A DNA stretch of 64,000 bases from the NCBI RefSeq assembly GCF_003633715.1, contig NZ_RBIE01000001.1, forward strand, positions 667,331 to 731,330, read 5' to 3'. A program made the position numbers and the translations under genes. Every line of letters begins with the position of its first letter. Position 1 is the first letter of the stretch. The DNA is from Thermovibrio guaymasensis (lineage in GTDB: Bacteria > Aquificota > Aquificia > Desulfurobacteriales > Desulfurobacteriaceae). Under the pieces are notes generated by a model. It was not told the origin of the DNA. It ran no database searches and was given only the letters and a program-made list of their open reading frames with translations. Positions 23,214 through 30,726 of this stretch are shown here, one piece after another.

Positions 23214-23248
23214 AACAATATCCGATGAACTTAATAGTTGGACTAATC

Positions 23249-24220
23249 ATGAGAAAACTTCTTCTAATGACTTTTGTTGCGGCTTTGACGGGGTTTTTGC
23301 CGCAGACGGTAGCTGCCCAAGGTCAAAGGATAAAAACTTACGGAGCTTATATGGTGCAAACTCTTCCTAAAGAACCCCTTTCTAAGGAGGAGATAAACGA
23401 CCTTCTTCACATGCGCGAGGAGGAGAAGCTTGCCAGAGATGTCTACCTGACTCTCGGCAACTACTATCCCCTTCCCATTTTCAGGAACATTGCCCGCTCG
23501 GAAGAGCAACACATGAGGATGATTAAGCTCCTTCTTGATAAGTACTCCCTTCCCGACCCGGTTGAAGAGAGCGGAGGAAGAGTGGGAGTTTTTAAAGACC
23601 CGAAGCTGCAGAAGCTCTACAACAAACTGGTCTCTCGGGGAAAGCGCTCCCTGATTGACGCCCTTAAAGTTGGAGCTACAATTGAAGACCTTGACATTAA
23701 AGACCTTGAAGAGGCGCTCTCAAGAACCGATAACAAGGACATAAGGGTTGTTTATCAGAATTTGATGAGAGGTTCCCGAAACCACATGAGGGCATTTGTC
23801 AGACTTTTGAGGAGGTATGGTTCCGATTATCAACCTCGGTACATTTCCTCTGAGGAGTTTAACTCCATTCTCTCGGTTAAACATGAAGCCGGTTTTTACT
23901 CCCCCAGCGGTACCTATTTTGGCCCTCGGTTTCTTAAGGGGAAAGTCCTAAAGATTTCTCAGAAGCCAGGATTTAGACGGAAGAACGTAATGTGGTGGGT
24001 GGTCCAAATAAAAACGCCTCAAGGAGAAGTTTCCGTAAGAGTCGCTCCCGTCCGGTGGTTACCTCAGTTTGAAGTTAAAGCCGGAGATTTTGTAAAGGTT
24101 ATCAGACTTCCTTACTGGAATATAAAGGGACTAAACGGTTATATGGCCTGCAAGTTGATTGACGAGACTGCCGGAAAAACCTACGACTTCTCTAAGTGGC
24201 GCAAGTGGTGCAGGAGGTAA
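23249..24220 (+). CDS. Exported DUF2202 ferritin-like protein with C-terminal extra domain
   Basis: A 323-residue protein with a signal peptide (MRKLLLMTFVAALTGFLP, cleavage probably after VAA-Q). Residues ~45-200 match the DUF2202 ferritin-like domain: EEEKLARDVYLTL, the ARSEEQHMRMI helix, the repeated GS-NHMRAF ending, and several Glu/His positions spaced as in di-iron four-helix bundles. The last ~100 residues form a separate beta-rich, basic region, possibly an OB fold (inference). It is the first gene after the sigma-54 promoter. A periplasmic role in metal or oxidant handling is plausible but not shown. The start at 23249 is preferred to the ATG at 23225 because of the promoter position and because the signal peptide begins there. 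Confidence 0.8.
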   Translation: MRKLLLMTFVAALTGFLPQTVAAQGQRIKTYGAYMVQTLPKEPLSKEEINDLLHMREEEKLARDVYLTLGNYYPLPIFRNIARSEEQHMRMIKLLLDKYSLPDPVEESGGRVGVFKDPKLQKLYNKLVSRGKRSLIDALKVGATIEDLDIKDLEEALSRTDNKDIRVVYQNLMRGSRNHMRAFVRLLRRYGSDYQPRYISSEEFNSILSVKHEAGFYSPSGTYFGPRFLKGKVLKISQKPGFRRKNVMWWVVQIKTPQGEVSVRVAPVRWLPQFEVKAGDFVKVIRLPYWNIKGLNGYMACKLIDETAGKTYDFSKWRKWCRR

Positions 24221-24222
24221 AG

Positions 24223-25047
24223 ATGCTGAGAAAATTTGTCAGCCTAATGCTCTTTTACTCCCTTCTGGTGATGCTTATCAGCGGTGTAGTTCTCTTCATA
24301 ATGCCCCACGGAAGGGTAGCCTACTGGACAGGCTGGACTTTCTTAGGTCTTGATAAAGACCAGTGGGATAACCTCCATATTATCTTTGGTTTTCTCATGC
24401 TCTTTTTCGGCTTCTGGCACCTCCTTTTAAACTGGAGGGCCATCGTAAACTACTTCAAATCCAAATATTTCCTCGTTTCAACCCTTTTAACCGTTATCGT
24501 TGCCGTTGGGGCTGTTTCAAACTTACCTCCCTTTAAAAACTTCATTGACTTTGGTGAAAAGATTAAAAACAGCTGGCCTAAACCCGCAACCATGCCTCCC
24601 GCTCCGCATGCCGAGCTCTTTCCCCTCTCTAAAGTTGCCCAGATGGTAGGCCTTGAGCCCCGGCAGGCCGTTGAAGTTCTTAGGAGCAGGGGCATTAAAG
24701 TTCCCTCACCAAATACCACTTTAAAAGAGATTGCAAACCTTAATAATACTACTCCTGCAAGGGTTTACGAGATTCTCCTTGAGGTCTCTCCGAAAAGGAG
24801 CTCCTCCCGAACTCTCCGGTTTCAGCCGGGCTCGGGTATGGGCAGGCTTACTTTAAAGGAGGTCTGCGCTCAGCTGAGGATTCCCCTTAACGTTTGTCTT
24901 GAGAGGCTTAGGAAGAGGGGAATTGAGGCAGCTCCCGATTCTCAGCTTAGGGAGATTGCCTTTAAAAATGGACTCTATCCCTATCAGTTAATTGAAATTC
25001 TTCAGGGAGGTAAAAATGGGGAAACTTCAGAAGCTGGCCATAAGTGA
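24223..25047 (+). CDS. DUF4405-type membrane protein with two C-terminal repeats
   Basis: A 274-residue protein. The first ~110 residues contain three hydrophobic helices with LHIIFGFLMLFFGFWH in the second, the histidine pattern of DUF4405, a family thought to resemble cytochrome b-type haem-binding bundles. After a Pro-rich linker come two related ~50-residue units (about residues 134-183 and 205-257): each begins with a Leu-x-(K/E)-V helix, has a VEVLRSRGI / LERLRKRGI core, and ends with a Tyr-containing ILL/ILQ helix. The repeats resemble small winged or HTH-like folds seen in some DUF4405 proteins; their function is unknown. AGGAGGT precedes the ATG. Confidence 0.7.
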   Translation: MLRKFVSLMLFYSLLVMLISGVVLFIMPHGRVAYWTGWTFLGLDKDQWDNLHIIFGFLMLFFGFWHLLLNWRAIVNYFKSKYFLVSTLLTVIVAVGAVSNLPPFKNFIDFGEKIKNSWPKPATMPPAPHAELFPLSKVAQMVGLEPRQAVEVLRSRGIKVPSPNTTLKEIANLNNTTPARVYEILLEVSPKRSSSRTLRFQPGSGMGRLTLKEVCAQLRIPLNVCLERLRKRGIEAAPDSQLREIAFKNGLYPYQLIEILQGGKNGETSEAGHK

Positions 25048-25270
25048 TGAGGGTTTCATCTTTGACCCTGAAACGGGAAGCAGCTTCACTGTTAACCAGA
25101 CCGGTCTCTTTATTCTGAAGCTCCTTAAGGAGGGTAAAAGTCAGGAAGAGATTGTTGAGGCTTTAACAGAGGAGTTTGACGTGAGCCGTGGGGAAGCCGC
25201 CAGAGACCTGATTGACTTCCTTGAGCAGCTAAGGCTCAACGGCCTTTTAAGGGAGGAGAAAAATGTATAA
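25016..25270 (+). CDS. PqqD-like (RiPP recognition element fold) protein
   Basis: An 84-residue protein with the PqqD pattern: an N-terminal beta hairpin (ISDEGFIFDPETGSSFTVN), the conserved N-x-T-G turn, and three helices ending FLEQLRLNGLL. PqqD-type domains bind the leader segment of ribosomal peptides and present it to modifying enzymes. They also occur in systems without known peptide substrates. The ATG at 25016 has GGGAGGT upstream inside the preceding gene and overlaps it by 32 nt. The ATP-grasp gene overlaps by 8 nt. Confidence 0.75.
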   Translation: MGKLQKLAISDEGFIFDPETGSSFTVNQTGLFILKLLKEGKSQEEIVEALTEEFDVSRGEAARDLIDFLEQLRLNGLLREEKNV

Positions 25271-26291
25271 GGTAGCCGTTTCGGGAATAAATGCCGTTGA
25301 TAACCCCGGCCCCGGCGTTGGCATTGCAAAGAGTTTGAAGGAGGGAGACAGGGAGCTCCGGGTCTTCGGCCTTGCCTATGACGCCATGGAGCCGGGAATC
25401 TACATGGACTGGCTGATAGACAAGAGTTTTATAATGCCCTACCCCAGTGAAGGAGAGGAGCTCTTCTTAAACCGGCTCCTCTACATTAAGGAAAAGTACG
25501 GCTTTGATGCAGTAATTCCCGCCCTTGACGCAGAGCTCCCCCTCTTCATAAAAGGCGCCCAGTACCTTGAAAACCTCGGGATAAAAACCTTCCTCCCGAC
25601 TCAGGAGCAGTTTAACTTAAGGGCTAAAGATAAACTCCCCGAAGTTGCCGAGAGAATAGGAGTTAAAGTTCCTAAGACAGTTGTCGTTACCTCATACGAG
25701 GAGCTCAGTAAAGCCGTCTCCGAGCTCGGCTTCCCTGTTATGATTAAGGGCATCTTCTACAAGGCCTACAAAGCCCAAAATATGGCTCAGGCTACCGCCT
25801 ACTTTAACTCAATAGTCAGTGAGTGGGGCTACCCGATAATCGTTCAGGAAGTAGTCTCCGGCGAGGAGATGAACGTTGTAGGGGTCGGAGACGGTGAGGG
25901 AGGGCACTTCGGCCTTGTGGGAATAAAAAAACTCTGGATAACCAGTCTCGGGAAAATCTGGACGGGAGTAACCGTGAAGAATGAAAAACTCCTTGAGGCC
26001 GCAGAGGGGTTTGTTTCGGCCTACTCTTGGAGGGGAGCCTTTGAGTTTGAATGTGTAGCCACCGATAGCGACATCTACCTGATTGAGATTAATCCCCGAT
26101 TTCCCGCGTGGGTTTACTTCTCAACGGGAGTCGGCGTAAACCTTCCCTACAGGCTCCTTCAGGCGGCTTTGGGAGTGGAACCCGAAAGGAGCTGGGATTA
26201 CGAGGCTGGAAAGCTCTACGTCCGCTACACCGACGACCTCGTTACCGACATGGATAGATTCCAGAAAATCATTACTTCCGGGGAGGTATAG
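25263..26291 (+). CDS. ATP-grasp ligase of unknown substrate
   Basis: A 342-residue protein of the carbamoyl-phosphate-synthase/PylC-like ATP-grasp type. An N-terminal Rossmann-like preATP domain (~1-115) is followed by the ATP-binding module with FPVMIKGIFYKA (phosphate-contacting Lys region), IVQEVVSGEE, and the Mg-binding EINPRFPAW near residue 275. Such enzymes join a carboxylate to an amine through an acyl phosphate. Its position between a PqqD-like protein and a Cys-rich peptide suggests either peptide modification or small-molecule ligation; the sequence does not decide which. Confidence 0.82.
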   Translation: MYKVAVSGINAVDNPGPGVGIAKSLKEGDRELRVFGLAYDAMEPGIYMDWLIDKSFIMPYPSEGEELFLNRLLYIKEKYGFDAVIPALDAELPLFIKGAQYLENLGIKTFLPTQEQFNLRAKDKLPEVAERIGVKVPKTVVVTSYEELSKAVSELGFPVMIKGIFYKAYKAQNMAQATAYFNSIVSEWGYPIIVQEVVSGEEMNVVGVGDGEGGHFGLVGIKKLWITSLGKIWTGVTVKNEKLLEAAEGFVSAYSWRGAFEFECVATDSDIYLIEINPRFPAWVYFSTGVGVNLPYRLLQAALGVEPERSWDYEAGKLYVRYTDDLVTDMDRFQKIITSGEV

Positions 26292-26292
26292 A

Positions 26293-26427
26293 ATGGGGCG
26301 CTTTCTGGCAGCCGCGGTTCTTTTGGGAATTCTTCTATTTAATCCCGGCTGCTGCCGTTGTCACTCCTGCGGAGAGGTCTGTCATCATCCCTGTAAGTGC
26401 TGTGTAAATCAAGATTTTAGGAGGTAA
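26293..26427 (+). CDS. 44-residue cysteine-rich peptide with N-terminal hydrophobic segment
   Basis: A short ORF filling the gap between the ATP-grasp and decarboxylase genes. The ATG at 26293 has GGGAGGT just upstream, and the gap is otherwise unexplained. Residues 4-16 are hydrophobic (signal or anchor), followed by CCRCHSCGEVCHHPCKCC, eight cysteines and three histidines within 18 residues, then a short polar tail. It could be a metal-binding lipoprotein-like peptide, a membrane-anchored metallothionein-like protein, or a ribosomal peptide substrate of the neighbouring enzymes. No lipobox of standard form is present (NPGC). Translation is likely from context but unproven. Confidence 0.65.
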   Translation: MGRFLAAAVLLGILLFNPGCCRCHSCGEVCHHPCKCCVNQDFRR

Positions 26428-26429
26428 AT

Positions 26430-27791
26430 ATGAAGAAACCCTATGAGAAGCCGGTAATTTTCAAGCTCAAAACCGGCTTTATGAATAAGTTCGGCGAAGG
26501 TTCCTATCTCTTAAAGAAAGTTCGCTCCAAGATAGAGGGTGTAAGTGTTGATGACCTCGTTAAAGAGTTCGGCTCTCCCCTCTTTGTCTTTTCCGAGAGG
26601 AAGTTGAGACAGAAGTTCCGTGAGCTAAAGAATGCCTTTGCTCTCCGTTACCCCAACGTTGAGTTCAGCTGGTCTTACAAGACCAACTACCTTGACGCTA
26701 TCTGTGCCATTCTCCACGATGAGGGGGAGACTGCCGAAGTTGTCTCAGAGTTTGAGTACGAGAAGGCAAGGAGGCTCGGAGTTCCTGGAAATAAAATCAT
26801 TTACAACGGTCCCTACAAGCCCCTTGATTCCCTGCGTGTTACAGTCAAAGAGGGGGCAAGGATTAACGTTGACCACTTTGAGGAGATAGCAGACCTTGAG
26901 CAGGTTGCTGACGAGTTGGGTACCAAGCCCCGTATAGGTATCAGGCTTAACATGGATATAGGGATTCAGCCCCAGTGGAGCCGTTTCGGCTTTAACCTTG
27001 AGAGCGGTCAGGCTTTGGACGCCGTTAAGCGAATTGCCGCCGGAGGCAAACTTGAGCTTGTGGGTCTCCACTGCCACATCGGTACCTTTATCCTTGAGCC
27101 CCGTGCCTACGAGCAGGAAGTTAAGAAGATGGTTGAGTTTGCTTACCGCGTTGAGGAGGAGTTCGGCTTCAAAATTGAGTACCTTGATATCGGAGGCGGT
27201 TTCCCCTCAAAGAACAAGCTCAGGGGAATTTACCTCCCTCCCGACGTTGCCGTTCCTTCAATTGATGAGTTTGCAGAAAGGGTCTGCAACGCTTTGCTAT
27301 CCTCCCTCCGTCCTGGAGATTACCCGAAGTTAATCCTTGAGAGTGGAAGGGCTATAGTTGATGAATCAGGCTACCTGATTACCACAGTTCACGCTGCAAA
27401 GAGAATGCCCGACGGCAGAAAAGCCTACGTCCTTGATGCGGGAGTAAACATCCTTTTTACCGCCTTTTGGTACCACTTTAACGTTGAGATTGACAGAGAA
27501 ATAAACGGTCCAGCCGAGCCCTGCATTCTCTACGGTCCCCTGTGTATGAACATTGATGTTGTTGACGATATGGTTCAACTCCCTCCCCTTCCTAGGGGAA
27601 CGAGGTTAATTCTTTCTCCCGTAGGCGCATACAACGTTACCCAGTGGATGCAGTTTATCAGGTACAGGCCCAACGTCGTTTTAATCGGGGAAAACGGAGA
27701 GGTTGAGCTAATCAGGAAGGCCGAGGACCTTTCTGACATAGTCAAAAGAGAGAGACTCCCCGAAAGGTTGGAGCTGAAATGGAAAGGTTAA
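26430..27791 (+). CDS. PLP-dependent LysA-like (fold type III) decarboxylase
   Basis: A 453-residue protein of the diaminopimelate/ornithine decarboxylase class. The PLP lysine lies in FSWSYKTNYL near residue 83, LVGLHCHIGT holds the ring-stacking His, and YLDIGGGFP supplies the phosphate loop. The C-terminal barrel ends with VGAYNVTQWMQF and keeps GPLCMNIDVV, where LysA enzymes have GPxCxSxD. It differs from housekeeping LysA in its ~45-residue N-terminal extension beginning MKKPYEKPVIFKLKTG, which resembles YxxPxI-type RiPP leader peptides. It starts 2 nt after the stop of the Cys-rich peptide gene, whose end supplies the AGGAGGT ribosome site. Its substrate is unknown. Confidence 0.8.
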   Translation: MKKPYEKPVIFKLKTGFMNKFGEGSYLLKKVRSKIEGVSVDDLVKEFGSPLFVFSERKLRQKFRELKNAFALRYPNVEFSWSYKTNYLDAICAILHDEGETAEVVSEFEYEKARRLGVPGNKIIYNGPYKPLDSLRVTVKEGARINVDHFEEIADLEQVADELGTKPRIGIRLNMDIGIQPQWSRFGFNLESGQALDAVKRIAAGGKLELVGLHCHIGTFILEPRAYEQEVKKMVEFAYRVEEEFGFKIEYLDIGGGFPSKNKLRGIYLPPDVAVPSIDEFAERVCNALLSSLRPGDYPKLILESGRAIVDESGYLITTVHAAKRMPDGRKAYVLDAGVNILFTAFWYHFNVEIDREINGPAEPCILYGPLCMNIDVVDDMVQLPPLPRGTRLILSPVGAYNVTQWMQFIRYRPNVVLIGENGEVELIRKAEDLSDIVKRERLPERLELKWKG

Positions 27792-29845
27792 AAAACTACT
27801 TTCTCCCTATTCTGAGGAGCTACTCGGCGGTTCTCTTTAACTCAAGTTTCTTGGGAGGAGGGGCTCTCCTCCTTCTAACCTTTTTAAACCCTAACCTCGG
27901 TTTAGGAGGTTTGGTTGCCGTTATTTCGGCCTACCTCTTTGCCAGGTTAATCAGCTTTAAGAGGGAGTTCCTTCGCCTTGACTACTACATCTACAATCCC
28001 CTTCTGGTGGGCCTTTCCCTAGGTTATCTCTTTAAAGTTTCCTTTCTCAGCCTCCTTTTCTTTGCGGTTGCCGGAGTTATGACCTTTCTCTTAACCTACG
28101 CCCTCTCTTCTCTCTTTTCCTACTACCTTAAACTTCCCGTCCTCAGCGTTCCCTTCGTTATAGGGAGTTCCCTCCTCTACCTGGCGAGCGTAAAGTTCAG
28201 CAACCTTTTTGCAGTAAACCTCTATCCCCACGGAGCTCCCCCCTTTTCTTTTAACCTGCCCCTGCCCCTTGAGGGCTACTTAAAATCCCTCGGGGCAATC
28301 TTCTTCGTCCCAGATTCATTTGCCGGCTTTGTTATTTTCCTTGTTCTCCTAATGGTTTCTCGGATTCTCCTCTTCCTTTCACTTTTGGGCTACTTCTCGG
28401 GAGCTCTCTTCCAGGCCCTCTTAACTGGTTCAACCTACCACGCTTTCTCCGATACCTCTGCCTTCAACTACATCCTTACCTCAATGGCGGTAGGCGGTGT
28501 TTTCCTTATTCCCTCTTTAAGGAGCTACAAGTTTGCCCTCCTCTCCTCTCTCATTGCCGTTCCTTTAAGTGCCGGTGCCAAGGTCTTCTGGGAGAGCTAC
28601 GGACTTCCCGTCTTTGCCATACCCTTTAACATCTCAACTCACATGCTCCTCTACGTTTTAATCGCCATTAGCTACTACTCTGTTGTAAAGATTTACAAGG
28701 GAACTCCCGAAAGGACCCTTGACTACTACCTTACCTACCAGAGGAGATTTCCCTTTACCGGCAGGGAGCTCCTGCCGCCCTTCTCAGGAAGGTGGACTGT
28801 CTGGCAATCCTTTGACGGCCGATGGACCCATAAAGGCCCCTGGAGGTACGCCCTTGACTTCGTTATTACCGATGAAGAGGGTAAGACCTATAAGGGGGAG
28901 GGCCTCTACCTTACCGACTACTACGCCTTCGGTAAACCCGTTCTCTCTCCCGTTGACGGTGAGGTCGTCTCTGTGGTCTCAAACCTTCCCGATAACCCTC
29001 CCGGGAAGGCCGACAAAGAGAACAACTGGGGCAATTACGTTCTAATCTACGACAGAAGAGGCTTTTACGTTCTCCTGTGCCACTTTAAGCAGAACTCTAT
29101 CAGGGTAAAACCGGGAGAACACGTTGTTAAGGGTACTCTCTTGGGACAGTGTGGGAACTCTGGCTACTCTCCCCAGCCCCACATCCACCTTCACGTTCAG
29201 CTCCTTCCCCATTTGGGAGCCCCCACAGTTCCCTTTAACCTTGCCTCTTACCTGTCGGGGGAGTTTTTCTACGACTGTGGGGTGCCTGAAGAGGGGCAGG
29301 AGGTTGAGCCGGTTTACCCCGATAAATCTCTCTTTAACCGCCTCAACCTTCTGATTGACCAGGAGATGGAGTTTACCGTTTCAGAGTTAGGAAAGGAGTT
29401 TCCTCTCAAACTCAAGGTTAAGATGGCTCCGGAGGGGACCTTTTACCTTACCGACGGCCTTGCTAAGCTTTACTTTGGAATAGAGAACTCTACTTTCTAC
29501 TTCTACCATTTTGAGGGAGATAGTTCCTCTCCTCTCAGGTATTTCTTCTTTTCCGCTCCAAAAATTCCACTTATCGGCCGTCAGGGGATTATCTGGAAGG
29601 ATTATCTACCCCTCCTAACTCTCTCTTCAAAATTGAGGAGGGAGCTCTACCTTTTTCTCTCTTCCTTCAAGTACGGCCTCTTTGAGGTTAAGGTTGAGAG
29701 TTCCTTTATCTCTTCTGAAAAGGTCTCTTCTGATATACTTCTGCCGGGAGGAGAGAAGGAGAGAGCTTGCCTTCTGATAGCTCCCGACTTTGGATTTGAA
29801 GAGATCTGCTTTGGAAATAAAGTAACAATAAGGAGGAAGAGATGA
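27779..29845 (+). CDS. Urea-transporter-like membrane domain fused to M23 peptidase-like domain
   Basis: A 688-residue fusion. Residues ~1-310 form about ten hydrophobic helices in the pattern of the urea transporter (UT) family. Residues ~330-480 form an M23/LytM-like domain with GNYVLIYDRR, LCHFK, GQCGNSGYSPQPHIHLHVQL and the HxH zinc pair. The usual first-ligand motif HxxxD is replaced by RYALD (preceded by HKGPW), so catalysis is uncertain. A ~200-residue beta-rich C-terminal region follows. The ATG at 27779 overlaps the decarboxylase gene by 13 nt. Such UT-M23 fusions exist in other anaerobes but I know of no characterised one; it may move a small molecule across the inner membrane. Confidence 0.75.
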   Translation: MERLKNYFLPILRSYSAVLFNSSFLGGGALLLLTFLNPNLGLGGLVAVISAYLFARLISFKREFLRLDYYIYNPLLVGLSLGYLFKVSFLSLLFFAVAGVMTFLLTYALSSLFSYYLKLPVLSVPFVIGSSLLYLASVKFSNLFAVNLYPHGAPPFSFNLPLPLEGYLKSLGAIFFVPDSFAGFVIFLVLLMVSRILLFLSLLGYFSGALFQALLTGSTYHAFSDTSAFNYILTSMAVGGVFLIPSLRSYKFALLSSLIAVPLSAGAKVFWESYGLPVFAIPFNISTHMLLYVLIAISYYSVVKIYKGTPERTLDYYLTYQRRFPFTGRELLPPFSGRWTVWQSFDGRWTHKGPWRYALDFVITDEEGKTYKGEGLYLTDYYAFGKPVLSPVDGEVVSVVSNLPDNPPGKADKENNWGNYVLIYDRRGFYVLLCHFKQNSIRVKPGEHVVKGTLLGQCGNSGYSPQPHIHLHVQLLPHLGAPTVPFNLASYLSGEFFYDCGVPEEGQEVEPVYPDKSLFNRLNLLIDQEMEFTVSELGKEFPLKLKVKMAPEGTFYLTDGLAKLYFGIENSTFYFYHFEGDSSSPLRYFFFSAPKIPLIGRQGIIWKDYLPLLTLSSKLRRELYLFLSSFKYGLFEVKVESSFISSEKVSSDILLPGGEKERACLLIAPDFGFEEICFGNKVTIRRKR

Positions 29846-30726
29846 GAAAGCTAATCGGAGTTCTTACAGTTTCACTTCTCTTTTCTGCACCTGCCCTTTC
29901 TCAGGAAATTCACGGTTACGAAGCCATCTACGGCAGCTACGTTAACTACTCAGGTTCAGGAATTAAGGACTACGGCTATTCCGGAACCGCGTACCTTGCA
30001 GTTGGAGATGGGAAGGAGCATTCCCTTCAGGCTGGCTACTCTTATACTAAAATCAAGTACAAGAGTGCTCCAGACCTTAATCAGAACGAATTTACTCTGG
30101 CCTATTCAAATACAAATGGAATCCTGAAAAACCACACTTTTACCTTCGGTGGTCACTACATTGACTCTGATGACGACTTAACCGATGGTGGATATGCCCT
30201 CTTTTTTGACGGAACTTACTCGAGCTACTCAAAAACTTACCCTTACGCTTTTAACTGGTCTGGTGGCCTTGGTTTTTACTACACCAGATACCCCAATACT
30301 GTTGACTTCTACGTTTTCCAGCTTACTCCCCATGCAACCTTGAAACTATTTTCTGACTATAAAAAGGGAGCTCTCTACCTTGACCTTACCGGTTACGGGA
30401 TTCACGTTGATAAGAGTTCCCAGGTTGGCCTTTCAAAGAGCAACTACTACTCCCTTGAGGGAACTCTCAGATATTACTACGGCCGATACGACTTTAAAGT
30501 GGGCGGCTGGGTCGGTCAGCAGGTCTTTGCAGTTAAGAAAGGAGGTTTTATCGTCTATAACCTGTCTGAGAAGTACAAGGGAGGAGCAGAACTTGAGACT
30601 GGCTACACTTTTAAGAATGGCCTGAGATTTTCATTCAACGTTAGCTATAACAAGTATAAGGAACTTTCTACCGATAATTCGGTTAACCAGACTGTAATTA
30701 CCGCCTCCCTTGGGTACAGATTTTAG
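29842..30726 (+). CDS. Outer-membrane beta-barrel protein
   Basis: A 294-residue protein with a signal peptide (MRKLIGVLTVSLLFSAPALS, cut before QEI) and alternating-hydrophobic, Tyr/Gly-rich strands through to a C-terminal ASLGYRF. The terminal Phe is the Bam recognition signal for outer-membrane barrels. About 12-14 strands are likely by eye. It overlaps the UT-M23 gene by 4 nt. Being in the same operon, it may be the outer-membrane channel or receptor for the operon's product. Confidence 0.75.
   Translation: MRKLIGVLTVSLLFSAPALSQEIHGYEAIYGSYVNYSGSGIKDYGYSGTAYLAVGDGKEHSLQAGYSYTKIKYKSAPDLNQNEFTLAYSNTNGILKNHTFTFGGHYIDSDDDLTDGGYALFFDGTYSSYSKTYPYAFNWSGGLGFYYTRYPNTVDFYVFQLTPHATLKLFSDYKKGALYLDLTGYGIHVDKSSQVGLSKSNYYSLEGTLRYYYGRYDFKVGGWVGQQVFAVKKGGFIVYNLSEKYKGGAELETGYTFKNGLRFSFNVSYNKYKELSTDNSVNQTVITASLGYRF

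Follow-up and report, generated by a model that had tools for sequence, protein, structure and literature searches.

The open reading frame (ORF) at positions 26293–26427 (+ strand) of the window, by which we mean the whole 64,000-nucleotide stretch of DNA analyzed here from the hydrothermal-vent bacterium Thermovibrio guaymasensis, is a real gene and is lineage-restricted. We put at roughly 55% the probability that this gene specifies a genuine exported Cys/His-rich mini-peptide whose translation is coupled to that of the flanking genes, and which is a passenger of its operon rather than a substrate of the neighboring PqqD and ATP-grasp proteins. The best explanation is that the peptide is one of a set of mini-lipoproteins of 39–44 residues confined to some Desulfurobacteriaceae. 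The genes of this class lie beneath the usual annotation size and occupy different genomic positions in sister genera, and what the class keeps is Cys content and anatomy, not sequence.

The predicted product, MGRFLAAAVLLGILLFNPGCCRCHSCGEVCHHPCKCCVNQDFRR, has 44 residues, among them exactly 8 cysteines and 3 histidines. Upstream, the gene for a PRK12767-like ATP-grasp ligase (25263–26291; Pfam, NCBIfam) ends in a TAG codon at 26289–26291, the peptide's start follows 1 nt further on, and a Shine-Dalgarno (SD) sequence (GGGGAGG, 26280–26286), which recurs as GGGGAGG in the relatives G001, G002 and G006, lies within the end of the ATP-grasp gene, 6 nt from the peptide's ATG. Downstream, the stop codon (TAA, 26425–26427) overlaps the SD sequence AGGAGGTAA of the decarboxylase gene, whose AGGAGG is shared with the final codons and stop of the peptide gene (26419–26427); the C-terminal RR is therefore the in-frame reading of AGGAGG and no feature of the protein. 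Between these ends, a hydrophobic signal-like segment (residues 1–19, 26293–26349) precedes the Cys/His cluster CCRCHSCGEVCHHPCKCC (26350–26403). The first-pass annotation had described an eight-cysteine ORF of 44 residues that has a good ribosome site, fills the only gap in the operon, and joins a hydrophobic N-terminus to a Cys/His-rich tail. Each of these points holds; indeed, the ORF occupies the sole sizeable gap between the PqqD and decarboxylase genes, and no promoter or terminator is listed between 26293 and 26430. An origin of the ORF by chance is excluded: an eight-cysteine ORF arose in 0 of 5,000 dinucleotide shuffles of the 141-nt gap, and for the gaps of G001, G002, G013, G016 and G021 the observed Cys number was reached in 0 of 3,000 shuffles each (9 of 3,000 for G006, whose gap is rich in Cys codons).

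The genes around the peptide, all on the + strand, encode a DUF2202 protein (23225–24220; PF09968), a DUF4405 membrane protein (24223–25047; PF14358), a PqqD-family protein (25016–25270; PF05402), the ATP-grasp ligase, a pyridoxal phosphate (PLP) decarboxylase resembling LysA and N-citrylornithine decarboxylase (26430–27791; PF02784/PF00278, NCBIfam, PDB 7kh2 and 1twi), a urea transporter-like protein with a peptidase M23 domain (27779–29845; PF03253, PF01551), and a protein that accompanies the cassette at many loci by co-occurrence and has no Pfam match (29842–30726); by appearance only, this last product is a YaiO-like outer-membrane barrel. The PqqD/ATP-grasp/decarboxylase/urea transporter-M23 cassette (25016–30726) is found in many phyla, its carriers including Desulfurobacteriaceae, Thermodesulfobacteria, Campylobacterota, Ignavibacteria and Gemmatimonadota, and our literature search found no paper on it. 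A partial second ATP-grasp copy, 76% identical over residues 1–152, lies near the cassette of one relative (G013:C65:21130–21585).

A clear cassette ATP-grasp gene was present in 18 of the 22 Desulfurobacteriaceae genomes sampled. In G001, G002 and G006 the slot between the ATP-grasp and decarboxylase genes holds an ORF of 43–44 residues with 8 Cys, a CC pair and a hydrophobic N-terminus, and in G003 it holds a 41-residue version with 4 Cys; in the other 12 of the 18 genomes the slot is empty. The frame, whose persistence in relatives with the same neighbors had been proposed as a check, is thus held by four relatives but missing from most. In G006 (L013, minus strand) a second Cys/His-rich ORF, MRGGWWILVVILVVLWVLGGFCCGLRGCHGAFCHCWHCRW, of 40 residues and with its own SD sequence, lies directly 3' of the first peptide gene. 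The slot of G007 (L008, about 2525–2820) encodes a c-type cytochrome (PF13442) whose C-terminus reads RQRCKNCGRF; it is like the window peptide in being an exported, Cys-bearing product of the same slot, and unlike it in its length (96 residues), its CASCH heme motif, its PF13442 match and its unrelated sequence. In most cassettes the ATP-grasp/decarboxylase gap is only about 0–30 nt, and nearly all cassettes of other phyla have a gap that is too short or lack such an ORF. Because the slot is mostly empty across cassettes, we conclude that the peptide is no part of the cassette. A wider profile search of 293 genomes gave matches at E ≤ 0.1 in 101 of them, mostly weak and partial, and those inspected yielded no convincing member from beyond the Desulfurobacteriaceae.

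Searching with a slot-peptide profile gave weak matches in genus g6, and these proved to be 39-residue ORFs of like anatomy directly 3' of pycB, the gene for pyruvate carboxylase subunit B. In G013, G016, G018 and G020 the ORF lies between pycB and a tRNA-Pro gene, and G021 has a 40-residue relative behind pycB without the tRNA-Pro gene. In all five of these genomes the decarboxylase slot lacks a peptide; conversely, no genome with a slot peptide carries one behind pycB. Given the five copies beside pycB, the peptide class is not tied to the PqqD/ATP-grasp/decarboxylase operon. Most of the pycB-type peptides share the mature part CCxCHPFCHHRECxCPC, and in the four genomes that could be compared (G013, G016, G018 and G020), which offer few sites, the omega of the mature part is 0.03–0.13 where dS is defined and that of the signal part is higher. 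The mature part of these four copies is under clear purifying selection, and this is the strongest evidence that peptides of this kind are functional. In composition the peptide is a short chain rich in Cys and His, as a metallothionein-like metal binder would be; conserved spacing of the ligands, for which the first-pass annotation had proposed to look, is seen among the pycB copies only. Homology of the slot and pycB peptides was considered and is unsupported beyond composition: alignments between the two mostly fail to beat composition-preserving shuffles, which justifies treating them as peptides of one kind but leaves it unproven that a single gene has changed place. Nor does a tree of two genes resolve into one clean gain or require a single origin. 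Plasmids gave no match for the pycB-type peptide.

Nine of the 11 peptides in the set pass a PS51257-type lipobox pattern (positive n-region, hydrophobic core). The lipobox is TSG-C, LGS-C or LSS-C in most members (TSG-C in G001), whereas the window copy has NPG-C at that position, within F-N-P-G-C, and does not satisfy the pattern. The set therefore looks lipoprotein-like with the window copy left unclassed as a lipoprotein; the genome encodes the lipoprotein signal peptidase LspA (PF01252, E 1.4e-42). Read together, these features suggest a pathway in which translation would be coupled to that of the flanking genes, the peptide would be exported by Sec, and, in most members, the first Cys of the CC pair would be lipidated, leaving a Cys/His tail of 19–25 residues anchored on the outer face of the membrane. 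Such a thiol- and imidazole-rich tail could bind soft transition metals (Cu, Zn, Fe) or exchange with sulfide or polysulfide. Because its lipobox is broken, the window copy would more likely be held by an uncleaved hydrophobic segment. The gene itself would be an operon passenger, lodged in an intergenic gap that has a good SD site at either end. Judged by composition, the peptide is probably an envelope-anchored metal/thiol peptide, the function that suits it best; the membrane-bound metal-binding peptide that the first-pass annotation had offered as an alternative is accordingly the better fit, with composition as the pointer to metal binding.

The window copy has evolved quickly. It is 70% identical to its G001 counterpart (dN 0.163, dS 0.150, omega about 1.1), whereas its neighbors have dN 0.017–0.041 and dS 0.145–0.334 in the same comparison, and it has no third-position excess against G001; the bias toward synonymous substitution that had been suggested as a test is thus missing here but present in the mature part of the pycB copies. 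The window copy may be under relaxed constraint, and its fast change together with its broken lipobox means that it may be membrane-held and not lipidated, or decaying. Decay would make it the relic of a mini-lipoprotein that was once functional and is now, in the window lineage, being released from constraint, as the omega value, the broken lipobox and the halved Cys complement of G003 might suggest; however, the SD sites, the frame and the Cys count are all kept, the last at 8 despite two gains and two losses relative to G001, and in neutral simulations the frame stayed open with at least 8 Cys in only 3–6% of runs. The simulations lend weak support to selection on the Cys content of the window copy, and we regard a relic as unlikely.

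Less probable still is that the peptide is exported, changes fast and is cross-linked by disulfides, as an antimicrobial or contact peptide might be, instead of binding metal. Its Cys-rich, cationic tail and the speed with which close species differ would suit such a role, but the peptides carry signals for anchoring in a membrane, the pycB copies have a His-rich CHPFCHHRECxC that resembles metal ligands, and no immunity or dedicated export gene lies next door. Moreover, the Desulfurobacteriaceae live in anaerobic, sulfidic habitats, which disfavor disulfides.

The first-pass annotation had first suggested a RiPP precursor; on this reading the neighboring PqqD, ATP-grasp and decarboxylase proteins would modify the Cys-rich peptide. 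The location between the ATP-grasp and decarboxylase genes favors this, as does the PqqD protein, which is a discrete RRE similar to the leader-binding B1 proteins of lasso peptides: its closest solved relatives are, by profile search, TbiB1 (5v1u, E 4.5e-11) and TfuB1 (6jx3, E 1.6e-10), both solved with leader peptides (YxxP), and its model (pLDDT 87) matches with a Foldseek probability of 1.00. Discrete RREs of this type bind [Y/W]xxPx[L/V/I/F/A] (PMC13381572; related statements in PMC12710340). However, the [YW]xxPx-hydrophobic motif is absent from all five slot peptides and is carried instead by the decarboxylase, nearly all cassettes have nothing in the slot, similar peptides lie behind pycB, away from PqqD and ATP-grasp, in five relatives, the peptides bear export signals, mostly of the lipoprotein type, and no division into leader and core is conserved. 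Nor did the slot peptide show the constant presence beside modifying enzymes that would mark a RiPP precursor. We reject this proposal as very improbable.

More promising is the decarboxylase tag. The motif YEKPVI (26442–26459) lies in the N-terminal tail of the decarboxylase, MKKPYEKPVIFKLKTG, of which residues 1–30 are predicted to be disordered (mean pLDDT 41–51) and with which the genome's own LysA paralogue does not align, its match to the tagged enzyme beginning only at residue 35. YxxPx-hydrophobic, or the same motif with Met in the last position, is found at this N-terminus in 103 of the 103 loci with a readable N-terminus, some of which represent the same genome twice and so are not 103 independent species, down to 56% overall identity. 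One of the six patterns used to search for loci was MKKPYEKP, which biases the sample toward the motif; despite this, many loci differ there (YVKPTI, YESPTI, WVKPSI). Pro8 never varies, and conservation is at least 90% at Tyr5 and Lys7. YEKPVI is likely a docking motif for the PqqD/RRE protein, and we lean toward a widespread, apparently undescribed cassette in which a lasso-type motif would serve as the docking tail of the decarboxylase, the RRE would recruit that enzyme in place of a precursor peptide, and the Cys peptide would be a lineage-specific passenger of the envelope. The tag makes the role of PqqD in this many-phyla cassette directly testable by a binding assay. Three Aquificota loci (L043, L044 and L048) have a tagged decarboxylase with the tag kept and PqqD and ATP-grasp undetected nearby. 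In a Melioribacteraceae locus (L079, 246–440), a free ORF of 64 residues starting MKKYHKPIIEKV lies between the ATP-grasp and decarboxylase genes and is a candidate stand-alone peptide carrying the YxxPx-hydrophobic motif.

That the slot is noncoding, its ORF a product-less accident in the spacer 5' of the decarboxylase gene, is scarcely credible: sequence is poorly conserved between genomes and the slot is empty in most relatives, but the shuffle tests, the identical anatomy in G001, G002 and G006, the purifying selection on the pycB copies and the lack of an Rfam match all oppose it. An RNA element in the gap was likewise rejected, since Rfam gave no match in the region up to E 1. The window peptide matches no known family at threshold in Pfam, NCBIfam or PHROGs, its sole family matches being weak ones to the DnaJ Cys-rich zinc-finger region (E 0.1–1.6), and the literature search found no paper on the cysteine-rich peptide.

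Like the precursors that act with discrete RREs, namely lasso peptides and LPPs (PMC13381572), the window peptide comes from a small ORF with a discrete RRE gene close by. Unlike them, it lacks [Y/W]xxPx[L/V/I/F/A], which the decarboxylase has in its place. In size and plan the set recalls small lipoproteins of the entericidin kind, with about 40–50 residues, a lipobox signal peptide and a short mature part; unlike those, the mature part here is about one-third Cys, with His in addition, there is no family match above cut-off, and the window copy is without a valid lipobox. In its shortness and its very high Cys content with His the peptide also resembles the metallothioneins, but these are cytosolic, whereas the window peptide, which has no match in the PDB, bears an export signal.
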